A stretch of 34,789 nt of DNA, taken from the NCBI GenBank assembly GCA_018221135.1, contig JAAOYB010000010.1, positions 1 to 34,789 on the forward strand, in the 5' to 3' direction. Each line of letters begins with the position of its first letter. Position 1 is the stretch's first letter. Under the pieces are notes generated by a model, which did no database searches, was not told the DNA's origin, and worked only from the letters and a program-made list of their open reading frames with translations. The translations under genes and the position numbers were made by a program. This DNA comes from Candidatus Woesearchaeota archaeon. GTDB taxonomy: Archaea; Nanobdellota; Nanobdellia; Woesearchaeales; BM511. Positions 10,838 to 29,399 of the stretch are shown here, in pieces.

Positions 10838-11173
10838 ATGGATTTTTTTAAATGCGGAGTTTGTGGTTACATTCATGAAGGAACAGAAGCACCTAATAAG
10901 TGTCCTAAGTGCGGAGCACCAAAAGAACAATTCACACAACTAAATAACTTAGACGCTGAGCTAATAACAAAGAGCAGGCTTACTAATGATTTTCACATGG
11001 AACTACGAGGCCTACTAGACACGATAGAAGAATTAGCAGAAGAAGGAATAAAAGAAGACTTAGACCCTAACTGCGTAGTCATATTCAAAAGAGCTAGAAG
11101 AGACGCAAGAGAACTAGCAGGGATGATAAAAGCAGAGATAACAACTCACATAGAAAAGAAGAAATGGGGATAA
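10838..11173 (+). CDS. Rubredoxin-like / rubrerythrin-like small metalloprotein
   Basis: 111 aa. The N-terminal zinc-ribbon/rubredoxin-type domain has C6-x2-C9 and C22-x2-C25 (CGVCGYIHEG..CPKCGAP), the pattern of rubrerythrin C-terminal domains, here placed first. It is followed by a helical domain (about 40-111) rich in Glu/Arg with ELRGLLDTIEELAEEG and ARELAGMIKAEITTHIEKKKWG. It lacks a full ferritin-like di-iron set, so it is probably an electron carrier or oxidative-stress partner and not a complete rubrerythrin. Strong GGAGGT upstream. It ends 3 bp from the convergent helicase gene. Confidence 0.8.
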   Translation: MDFFKCGVCGYIHEGTEAPNKCPKCGAPKEQFTQLNNLDAELITKSRLTNDFHMELRGLLDTIEELAEEGIKEDLDPNCVVIFKRARRDARELAGMIKAEITTHIEKKKWG

Positions 11174-27133: not shown

Positions 27134-27141
27134 TTTAAATA
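27134..27141 (+). promoter_or_regulatory. TATA box of the Trp-leader/tRNA/trpD-like transcript
   Basis: TTTAAATA, centre ~23-25 nt before the leader ATG at 27160. Confidence 0.65.
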
Positions 27142-27159: not shown

Positions 27160-27300
27160 ATGTTATGTGTGACTCAATTTTGTATGGTGGTTGCCCGTGG
27201 CAACATCAATAAGCTTTCTTTATTAGTTCGCACTATATTATTTGAGATTGATTGTTTTCTTAGAATGCTCCCTTTTAAGTTTTGGTGGTGGCAACTTTAA
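27160..27300 (+). CDS. Candidate tryptophan leader peptide (46 aa, ending WWWQL)
   Basis: The ATG coincides with the expected transcription start, so it would be translated leaderless. Codons 42-44 are three consecutive TGG (27283-27291), then CAA CTT TAA. Upstream, GTTGCC at 27190-27195 can pair with GGCAAC at 27199-27204 (6-bp stem, 3-nt loop) or with GGCAAC at 27290-27295, which overlaps the third Trp codon. Ribosome stalling at the Trp codons would change which pairing forms. No oligo-U terminator follows, so the read-out mechanism is unknown. The rest of the peptide is hydrophobic and Cys-containing and not recognised. Confidence 0.55.
   Translation: MLCVTQFCMVVARGNINKLSLLVRTILFEIDCFLRMLPFKFWWWQL
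27185..27204 (+). repeat. TGGTGG-(TTGCCCG)-TGGCAAC, copy 1 of leader repeat
   Basis: Copy 2 at 27283-27295 is the same sequence without the central TTGCCCG (TGGTGGTGGCAAC). The extra seven bases complete the local hairpin in copy 1. Confidence 0.6.
27283..27295 (+). repeat. TGGTGGTGGCAAC, copy 2 of leader repeat (Trp codons)
   Basis: In frame with the leader peptide it encodes Trp-Trp-Trp and part of Gln. See copy 1 at 27185-27204. Confidence 0.6.
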
Positions 27301-27338
27301 TTCTCATTGGCTACTATTCTTAAAAAAAAATTGTTTAT

Positions 27339-27412
27339 GGGGGTGTAGTATAACACGGCTATTATATCCGGCTCCAGACCGGAGGATTCGAGTTCAAATC
27401 TCGACGTCCCAA
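27339..27412 (+). tRNA. tRNA-Trp (anticodon CCA)
   Basis: Cloverleaf by eye: acceptor GGGGGTG/CGTCCCA, D arm GTAT..TTAT with A14, G18G19 and A21, anticodon arm TCCGG-CTCCAGA-CCGGA with CCA at 27374-27376, variable GGAT, T arm TCGAG-TTCAAAT-CTCGA. U8-A14 and A15-U48 tertiary partners are present. No intron; CCA is not encoded; the discriminator is A73. The first pair is G1:A72, a mismatch; if one G of the GGGGG run were absent, T27338 would pair with A72 and the acceptor would be fully paired. The gene sits between the Trp leader and the trpD-like gene. Confidence 0.88.
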
Positions 27413-27438
27413 ATAAAAAATTGGAGGAAAAAAATAAG

Positions 27439-28641
27439 ATGAATGAAGAAATACATAAACCAAAATATGATATGAATCAATTAAGAGAATTATCAAAAGA
27501 TTTCAGCGTAAACAACGTGCTTAAGCATCACGCGTATCAAAACAAGCCATTAGGCTTTGAGGATGCTTATGTCTTAGGAGTTTACACTTTGTACCCTTAC
27601 AAAGAAGAACTTGAAGGAATATTTGATGTTGATCCAGTCTTAGCTGAGAAACAAAGCATAGCAGCTCTTTGCGCTTTGCATAATAAAGAAACCTACAAGG
27701 ATGAAAAAGCTGCAGGGCAAATAGCTGGTATCACCGCTGCTGTGTTCGACTATGACATCGGATTATCAACGAATGGTTTTTTAAACCTTGATATTGGTTG
27801 TGTCATGGATAATTGTGGTATGGGAGGAGATTTGTATAGGACTAGTAATGTTAGTACCTTAGCTGCTTTGATAGCTTCAGCGGACGGGATTCCTATGGGC
27901 AAACACGGCTCTCCAGGTAATACTGATAGCACAGGAAGCAGTGATTTTCTTGAGTATTTAGGTGTTGATTTGTTTAGTAAGCCAGAAGTCGTTGAGGAAG
28001 CTTTAAGAAGGTTTAATTTTGGGTACACTGACGCTTTAGACACAGATTATAAGAGCGTACATGTACAAACTCATAAATCAGCTCACCTAGCCCATATGAA
28101 TGACATAATCGGCCCTATAACTAACCCTTTAAACCCTGCCATGGTTAAGAAGAGGGTTTTAGGGGTTAATCACCTCATAGAACCAAGCATTGTCGCAAAA
28201 GCATACAACATCCTAAACAAAGAAGGAATTACGAGCCTTGATCATGGCTTGTTCATAAGAGGTTATGTTGATAGTGAGCGAAACGGCGGCATTGATGAAG
28301 CTTCAGTTTTTGAGGGAGGAACAAAAGTAGCAGAACTAAAAGACGGCGTGGTTGATGAGTATTCTTTGTTCGCTGATGATTTCGGAATCGATACTCCTAG
28401 CTATGTTGAGCCTCCAAGAGGAAAAATTGGAAAAGCACAGTTTAGCAAGGAGATTCTTGAAGGAAAAGTCAGTGGTGTTCACAAAGATTTAGTATTGGCA
28501 AACGCCGCAATCCTACAATACTTAGATAAAGGAATAGGTTTTAGAGAAGGCTTTAAAAGATCTAAAGACATCCTTGAATCTGGTGAGCCTTTCAGAAACC
28601 TTGAAAACTACATTAGTTTTACAAGAGGTGAAGTAAAATGA
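27439..28641 (+). CDS. TrpD-like phosphoribosyl/nucleoside transferase family protein
   Basis: 400 aa from ATG 27439, with GGAGGA 10 nt upstream. Anthranilate phosphoribosyltransferase fold: NCGMGGD at 125-131 (canonical GTGGD), NVST at 137-140, KHGSPGNTDSTGSSDFLEY at 155-173, IIGPITNPLNP, and a C-terminal DLVLANAAILQYLDKG. The PRPP-binding loops are largely kept. Where TrpD has an RTIFN-type stretch carrying the anthranilate-binding Arg, this protein has LAHMND, and the SxxGS loop is altered, so the acceptor may not be anthranilate. Coupled to the BtpA gene by ATGA. Confidence 0.85.
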   Translation: MNEEIHKPKYDMNQLRELSKDFSVNNVLKHHAYQNKPLGFEDAYVLGVYTLYPYKEELEGIFDVDPVLAEKQSIAALCALHNKETYKDEKAAGQIAGITAAVFDYDIGLSTNGFLNLDIGCVMDNCGMGGDLYRTSNVSTLAALIASADGIPMGKHGSPGNTDSTGSSDFLEYLGVDLFSKPEVVEEALRRFNFGYTDALDTDYKSVHVQTHKSAHLAHMNDIIGPITNPLNPAMVKKRVLGVNHLIEPSIVAKAYNILNKEGITSLDHGLFIRGYVDSERNGGIDEASVFEGGTKVAELKDGVVDEYSLFADDFGIDTPSYVEPPRGKIGKAQFSKEILEGKVSGVHKDLVLANAAILQYLDKGIGFREGFKRSKDILESGEPFRNLENYISFTRGEVK

Positions 28642-29399
28642 AGAAATTAATTGGTGTAATTCATCTTAAGGCCCTTCCTGGGTACCCCCAACATAAAGAT
28701 ATGAAGTACGTTGTTGAACACGCAGTAAAAGACGCAGTTATACTAGAGAAAGGAGGGGTTAATGAGATTATTGTTGAGAACACAGATGATGACCCTCACA
28801 AAAAAGTGAACACAGCAGAGACAGTTGCAGCGATGACATATGTGTTAAGTGAGATCAAAAAAAAGGTTGGTGTTCCTTTAGGTGTTTGTGTCTTATGGAA
28901 TGATTACAAAGCATCATTAGCAATAACTAAAGTCTTAGACTTAGATTTTGTTAGGGTGCCTGTGTTCATCGAAGCTGTTCTTACTAGTAGCGGATTCATC
29001 GAAGGAGACCCTTACGACGTAATAAATTACAGGAATCTTTTAAGAGCTAATAATATCAGGTTATTGGTGGATGTTGATGTAAAACACGCAACTAATATGT
29101 CTAAGAGAAGCATTGAAGAATCAGCTAATGAAGCTTTGCATTTCGGCGCTGATGAATTAGTAATCACTGGTAAATTCACTGGTGATTCTCCTGATTTAGA
29201 AGACCTAAAAAAAGTTAGGAAAATATCTCCTAACACAATTATTTGTATAGGTAGTGGTACTGACATAGAAAACGTAGAGTCATTAGCTATGTACGCTGAT
29301 AATTTTATTGTTGGGACTTACTTCAAAGATGAAAAAGGAGAAATCGATGTGGAAAAAGTTAAGTTGCTACGACAAAAAATAGAATCCTTTGCGAAATGA
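28638..29399 (+). CDS. BtpA/SgcQ-family (beta/alpha)8 protein
   Basis: 253 aa. Family text throughout: IGVIHLKALPG at the start, GGVNEIIVENTDDDPHKKV, TVAAMTYVL, VPLGVCVLWNDYKASL, VDVDVKHA, ELVITGKFTGDSPDLEDLKKVR, IGSGTDIENVESL and FIVGTYFKD. Members include photosystem I biogenesis protein BtpA and putative sugar-phosphate enzymes; the activity is not established. A TIM barrel next to a TrpD-like protein recalls the TrpD-TrpF pair, but no TrpF motif is seen. ATGA overlaps on both sides. Confidence 0.9.
   Translation: MKKLIGVIHLKALPGYPQHKDMKYVVEHAVKDAVILEKGGVNEIIVENTDDDPHKKVNTAETVAAMTYVLSEIKKKVGVPLGVCVLWNDYKASLAITKVLDLDFVRVPVFIEAVLTSSGFIEGDPYDVINYRNLLRANNIRLLVDVDVKHATNMSKRSIEESANEALHFGADELVITGKFTGDSPDLEDLKKVRKISPNTIICIGSGTDIENVESLAMYADNFIVGTYFKDEKGEIDVEKVKLLRQKIESFAK

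Follow-up and report, generated by a model that had tools for sequence, protein, structure and literature searches.

How could an archaeon match the expression of a tRNA-Trp gene and a TrpD-like gene to its supply of tryptophan? This question is raised by a leader region of a Candidatus Woesearchaeota archaeon, located within the 34,789 nt of contig JAAOYB010000010.1 (GCA_018221135.1, forward strand) analyzed here (the window) and flanked by a chorismate-mutase-like gene on one side and tRNA-Trp on the other. The first-pass annotation proposed a Trp-sensing leaderless leader peptide ahead of tRNA-Trp and a TrpD-like gene. Both genes were found downstream (Table 1), the latter being called TrpD-like because its match to TIGR01245 falls below the curated cut-off, and a leader peptide of this kind is supported by its conservation in relatives. 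An Rfam search of the segment matched no RNA family except the tRNA, and hence no T-box RNA structure. Comparison of related leaders indicates that the region probably carries a programmed +1 frameshift cassette, in which a hungry sense codon serves as the amino-acid sensor.

The 46-codon leaderless ORF originally put forward as the leader does exist, but its start and frame were wrong. The conserved start is ATG 27165, in a different frame from ATG 27160, and the longer ORF was rejected as the leader because other members lack an ATG in that frame; ATG 27160 is probably fortuitous. The two ORFs overlap, and the WWW run, previously taken as the first sensor, lies in the +1 frame of the true leader, whose first sensor is TGG 27198. 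With up to three mismatches allowed, the window contains one copy of GGTGGTTGCCNGTGGCAAC where 0 are expected, and its pattern recurs in at least 9 of 353 genomes of the order, with 0 in the control; a viral scan for patterns was too unspecific to use. At seven loci the motif lies exactly 21 nt past an ATG that is itself preceded by a TATA box at about 30 nt, and these loci encode M-x6-[G/S]GC-x-WQ followed by an early stop. Conservation of the motif keeps to the coding register set by the ATG and allows TGT/TGC and CAA/CAG exchanges, which marks it as a coding element; on these grounds a palindromic operator was rejected. In another Nanoarchaeota genome, a TrpD-like homologue without a preceding tRNA-Trp retains GGTGGTTGCCTGTGGCAAC upstream. 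In 78 of 92 related leaders the TATA box and the ATG are 29-32 nt apart, a promoter spacing that would put the transcription start site at the ATG and predicts a leaderless mRNA. The general layout is a TATA box, about 30 nt, ATG, codons for [S/V/G]-[D/G]-[C/Y]-x-sensor, and a stop one to five codons on; in the window, TAA 27210 closes the 0 frame soon after the sensor TGG. Beyond the 0-frame stop lies a conserved T-rich element, a candidate termination or pause signal.

Table 1. Features of the leader region and the genes behind it (positions in the window)
Feature	Position	Strand	Remark
TATA-like box TTTAAATA	27134-27141	+	31 nt before leader ATG
46-codon ORF of the first-pass annotation, ending FWWWQL-stop	27160-27300	+	3' part is the +1 frame of the leader
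0-frame leader ORF MCDSILYGGCPWQHQ-stop, predicted leaderless	27165-27212	+	conserved with relatives
Constant motif GGT GGT TGC	27186-27194	+	TGC is the 3-nt spacer before the shift codon
Putative shift codon CCG (P site with TGG in A site)	27195-27197	+	from x-codon statistics
Sensor codon TGG, 0 frame, then C	27198-27200	+	C likewise in 44/53 Trp leaders
+1-frame extension GNINKLSLLVRTILFEIDCFLRMLPFKFWWWQL-stop	27199-27300	+	
Conserved T-rich element GCTTTCTTTATTAGTTCGCACTATATT after 0-frame stop	27213-27239	+	weak in window member
Second sensor, three TGG codons just ahead of +1-frame stop	27283-27291	+	inside the 46-codon ORF
tRNA-Trp (CCA)	~27339-27412	+	downstream of leader
TrpD-like phosphoribosyltransferase, presumed regulated gene	27439-28641	+	TIGR01245, E 6e-43
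BtpA-family protein, presumed regulated gene	28638-29399	+	

Two search models were used to collect the family from draft metagenome assemblies. The first, built from seven leaders, found divergent members with KSDCxW and RVDCxW, and the second (R2), built from twelve shorter leaders, was searched across the order; the 59 newly fetched R2 match regions together with the earlier loci gave 92 usable leaders. R2 reaches only a few tens of bases past the leader, so that neither the genes downstream nor the point where the +1 frame stops belongs to the model. Across 279 sampled genomes of the phylum, R2 gave matches at E <= 1e-4 in at least 42, and five of these belong to other orders of the class; prevalence figures here are lower bounds. 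Among these five loci the rule of sensor and gene is clearly kept in three, namely L340 (Trp, TrpRS), L348 (Trp, tRNA-Trp) and L350 (His, HisRS); at L356 the leader precedes BtpA and TrpRS genes, and L355 has no assignment. In the window's own genome only the leader at 27165 is significant. A second motif match in the window, TGTGGTTACATTCAT at 10862 (+), has a His-type sensor. A motif scan of the oriented loci returned 109 cassettes on the sense strand, 19 of them outside the leaders already counted, and 0 on the antisense strand.

The sensor is W, H or P, two residues past C/Y, and it matches the genes behind it, as identified with NCBIfam. A W sensor precedes tRNA-Trp, TrpRS, TrpB, TrpE or TrpD-like genes at 24 loci, an H sensor tRNA-His, HisRS, HisG or HisC at 29, and a P sensor ProB or ProC at three, with no crossover among labelled neighbours (56 matches; Fisher p = 1.3e-15); outside the training loci the matches number 15 for Trp, 28 for His and 3 for Pro. 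The His and Pro members rule out a system for Trp only. When 70 regions upstream of HisRS were surveyed without the models, His leaders turned up in 12 on the sense strand and in none on the opposite strand; most HisRS genes of the order have no leader. In favor of a functionless chance ORF is that short ORFs containing TGG are common. This reading is refuted by the conservation between genera and into other orders of the class, by the matching of sensor to gene and by the 109:0 ratio of sense to antisense cassettes, and its probability is negligible. About half of the Trp-type leaders precede genes without a clear link to Trp. A protein family beginning VDEFLKINGA... recurs behind Trp leaders (L026:3-704, L220, L252), and its L026 member has no Pfam match. 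Two candidates were rejected as members: L030, which lies inside a racemase gene and has no promoter or leader layout, and the IleRS leader of L169, which has no shift cassette. The latter (L169:1535-1609) is a leader-like ORF with four terminal Ile codons (MKPNQKLGFIGIALVSFISVIIII), and may be an ordinary leader peptide or a chance occurrence.

A classical RNA-hairpin attenuator had been suggested for the locus, with GTTGCC at 27190 pairing either with the near GGCAAC (27199) or with the far one (27290). These sequences are present, and members with GGTTGCC..GGCAAC retain the near pair; the switch itself is unsupported, since 27160-27337 folds no better than its shuffles (z -0.36) and Rfam gave no match. 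The near hairpin arises from the coding of GC-x-WQ, as GGT TGC CCG TGG CAA C forms both arms, and KSDCxW, DY and His leaders have it in weakened form or not at all. The far GGCAAC derives from a TGG-TGG-CAA run and is not general, and the leaders compared have no conserved alternative pairing. A hairpin attenuator is therefore very improbable.

The +1 frame of the leaders is open and conserved. From the sensor onwards, the median open length is 28 codons in the +1 frame versus 7 in the +2 frame, and the +1 frame is the longer one in 88 of 92 leaders (p 1.2e-15); in the model-free HisRS leaders it spans 21-194 codons versus 0-60 (p 0.002). The conserved stretch past the leader is nearly always in the +1 frame, open back into the leader and without an ATG of its own, and it repeats cognate codons before its stop (GxWR-stop, HHx-stop and, in the window, WWWQL-stop), a cognate residue lying within the last 5 aa in 67 of 86 short +1 ORFs. 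Among five leaders of one genus, differences past the 0-frame stop amount to 0.15, 0.18 and 0.38 at +1 codon positions 1, 2 and 3, a pattern that points to a translated frame. Transcriptional slippage at the T run was rejected as a route into this frame, because the T run of the leaders comes after the 0-frame stop, too late for slippage to bypass it. At six His loci (L198, L216, L241, L264, L265 and L247), the +1 frame crosses the tRNA-His gene region, and in L247 it reaches HisRS.

At several loci the +1 frame leads directly into an enzyme, namely an amino-acid racemase (E 6e-34 to 4e-53), HisG (PF01634, 9e-17) or an FAD oxidoreductase, and behind the L028 leader a PEP-synthase-like protein follows in the +1 frame. 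The conserved sequence of the racemase, HisG and PEP-synthase-like proteins mostly begins ahead of any ATG. In the racemases, the Pfam domain starts 8-12 residues past the shift point and the first ATG, if any, falls after the onset of the conserved N-terminus; an ATG is mostly missing at the expected start, and the start annotation of these genes may be wrong. Some loci have two cassettes in series, and at L177 the ribosome would have to shift +1 twice in succession, at a Trp codon each time, to reach the racemase. Asp/Glu-type racemase genes occur in both the Trp and the His regulons (L177, L186, L188, L195, L227, L229, L249). A winged-helix-like protein occupies the +1 frame in L230 and L245 (Pro) and in L242 and L356 (Trp), Pfam confirming it for L230 only, and the shift may therefore yield a transcription regulator during starvation. 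A further conserved protein, without Pfam or NCBIfam matches, is found in the +1 frame of the His cassettes of L228, L237 and L263, where CTG is the only NTG in the motif.

The codons at the presumed shift site are strongly biased. TGG is preceded by CTT, CGG, CCG, GCG, TTT or CGC in 48 of 53 Trp leaders, these six making up 7.5% of codons in the genes of the fetched loci (p 1.7e-48), and the His sensor is preceded by ATT or CTT in 29 of 35 leaders (p 7e-31). Since 12 leaders served to train R2, these counts depend in part on the search model. The base after TGG is C in 44 of 53 Trp leaders, and across the 92 leaders the A-site sensor codon is TGG, CAY or CCN, never the stop UGA. Known +1 sites include CUU_UGA_C and UUU_U (RF2), CUU_AGG_C (Ty1), GCG_AGU_U (Ty3) and, in antizyme, GCG_UGA_C and CCG_UGA_C (PMC5009743). 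Many pre-sensor codons of the leaders coincide with known +1 shift codons; ATT and CGG are not among the cited shift codons found in the open-access literature. Ty1 and antizyme sites shift with high intrinsic efficiency (PMC5009743), and the likeness of the leader sites to them would also suit a constant +1 frameshift of set ratio, unresponsive to amino-acid supply and serving only to make fusion products. A constant shift would need no match between sensor and gene, but the A-site codon is always cognate to the regulated genes, and we give such a shift very little credence.

The main rival is internal initiation at the NTG of the motif, giving two overlapping leader peptides and no frameshift. 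The first ORF would start at the leaderless ATG and the second at an internal GTG, TTG or CTG in the +1 frame; each would have its sensor codon, and ribosome stalling alone would bring about attenuation. Archaea use GTG and TTG starts, and in 92 of 92 leaders the motif has NNT followed by G, which creates GTG, TTG or CTG; as an NTG is always found in the motif's +1 frame, such initiation is possible. ATG, the best start, occurs in 0 of the 92, however, with one ATG outside the order (L340), and several gated enzymes have only CTG (L228, L237, L249, L263). The rival also leaves the bias toward shift-prone codons (p 1.7e-48) and the C after TGG (44/53) unaccounted for, and we judge it unlikely. 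A hungry-codon +1 shift is the simplest account, because it explains together the cognate codon in the A site, the shift-prone codon in the P site, the conserved open +1 frame and the enzymes encoded there.

An additional element may assist this frameshift. Ahead of the spacer, the choice among synonymous codons is invariant (Ser AGT 46/46, Val GTT 29/29, Gly GGT 9/9 and 24/24, Asp GAT 68/68), and GGUGGU can pair with the 16S 3' tail GGAUCACCUCC, a sequence identified in the window's genome and in nine more, two of which have a changed tail or flank. The choice of codons strengthens the pairing in 87 of 92 leaders (-5.4 versus -3.4 kcal/mol); in aligned spacing, the pairing element is about 4 nt more distant from the shift codon than the RF2 Shine-Dalgarno element. 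The spacing cited for +1 stimulators is 3 nt (PMC5009743), the length of the spacer here. Owing to the difference of about 4 nt from RF2, stimulation of the shift by the 16S-pairing element is offered as a hypothesis.

These features suggest how the locus may work. Translation of the leaderless mRNA would begin at ATG 27165 and pass through GGT GGT TGC CCG, bringing TGG into the A site next. When charged tRNA-Trp is plentiful, TGG would be decoded and translation would terminate three codons on, at TAA 27210. If it runs short, the ribosome would pause with CCG in the P site and slip by +1, so that GGC becomes the A-site codon, and the second frame would then be read through the T-rich region up to the Trp run WWWQL-stop at 27300. 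At related loci with an enzyme in the new frame, the enzyme would be a direct product of the shift. Ahead of a tRNA gene and an operon, as in the window, extended translation would most likely keep a ribosome behind RNA polymerase and prevent early termination, raising tRNA-Trp and TrpD-like expression in Trp shortage; as tRNAs are not open to translational control, relief of early transcription termination is the most likely step at tRNA loci. A plausible termination factor at the leaders is FttA, considered the likely source of archaeal polarity (PMC12548453). Swapping one codon would retune the sensor. We consider it likely that the cassette is a modular switch of DPANN archaea for Trp, His and Pro genes, in which a shortage of charged tRNA would lead to a +1 slip, with gating of enzymes and antitermination as its outputs. 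Comparison of sequences shows the cassette, the match of sensor and genes, the open and conserved +1 frame and the bias in shift codons; from these patterns we infer that starvation drives the shift, as well as the efficiency of the shift and the antitermination step.

Among the closest known counterparts is bacterial RF2 (prfB), which likewise has a short 0-frame ORF, the P-site shift codon CUU (sometimes UUU) and a slow U-initial A-site codon followed by C, as in CTT-TGG-C of the leaders and CUU-UGA-C of RF2 (PMC5009743); RF2 also has a product in the +1 frame and an upstream 16S-pairing element, both of which are proposed for the leaders. The slow codon of RF2 is the stop UGA, which senses RF2, whereas in the leaders a Trp, His or Pro codon takes this place and would sense charged tRNA; the leaders also serve many unrelated operons, on predicted archaeal leaderless mRNA, and their candidate 16S-pairing element differs in sequence and spacing. 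The Ty1, Ty3 and yeast antizyme sites share the arrangement of shift codon and slow codon, most with C after it, but have neither amino-acid-specific gene regulation nor a swappable cognate codon. With bacterial trp and his attenuators the leaders share a cis-acting leader peptide, codons that match the downstream operon and an expected induction by starvation. Unlike these attenuators, they have no competing hairpins, intrinsic hairpin terminator or U run, are predicted to be leaderless, usually have one sensor codon at the shift site, and continue in the +1 frame. In the tna operon of E. coli, the Trp-sensing leader TnaC blocks a termination factor; it responds to excess Trp through an arrest peptide and without a frameshift, in contrast to the frameshift proposed for the leaders. 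In T-box riboswitches, the charging state controls aminoacyl-tRNA synthetase and amino-acid biosynthesis genes and one codon sets the specificity, but the T-box is an untranslated tRNA-binding RNA, whereas the sensor codon of the leaders is translated.

Each component therefore has a precedent, and the combination of a swappable sense-codon sensor with +1 frameshifting is without precedent in the open-access literature searched, where neither an archaeal amino-acid attenuation system nor a natural regulatory use of hungry-codon frameshifting was found described. The initial remark that no archaeal equivalent had been described agrees with a 2021 paper, which states that archaea have no known transcription attenuation or antitermination (PMC8448881). 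A 2016 review considered that hungry-codon frameshifting could serve starvation-specific synthesis, with no examples known; there the pheL frameshift is considered incidental and the telithromycin-induced frameshift in the ermC leader regulatory (PMC5009743). For archaeal frameshifting, the literature searched gave -1 cases and a single viral +1 case (PMC8211752). If the proposed mechanism is correct, the cassette would fill both gaps, the use of hungry-codon frameshifting and archaeal attenuation or antitermination, and would reveal a possible way for DPANN archaea with small genomes to regulate amino-acid genes without dedicated repressors. Retuning of the sensor by one codon would become testable, and the racemase, HisG and PEP-synthase-like enzymes may be mis-annotated, with starts that lie across the frameshift.

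The leaders also bear on the BtpA family. BtpA-family genes recur both behind Trp-sensing leaders and adjacent to TrpD-like genes, in the window (28638-29399) and at L238, L242 and L197, and this recurrence suggests a role for the family in Trp synthesis, perhaps as a TrpF-like enzyme. In L012, from another archaeal lineage, a BtpA-like frame lies ahead of a TrpD-like gene.
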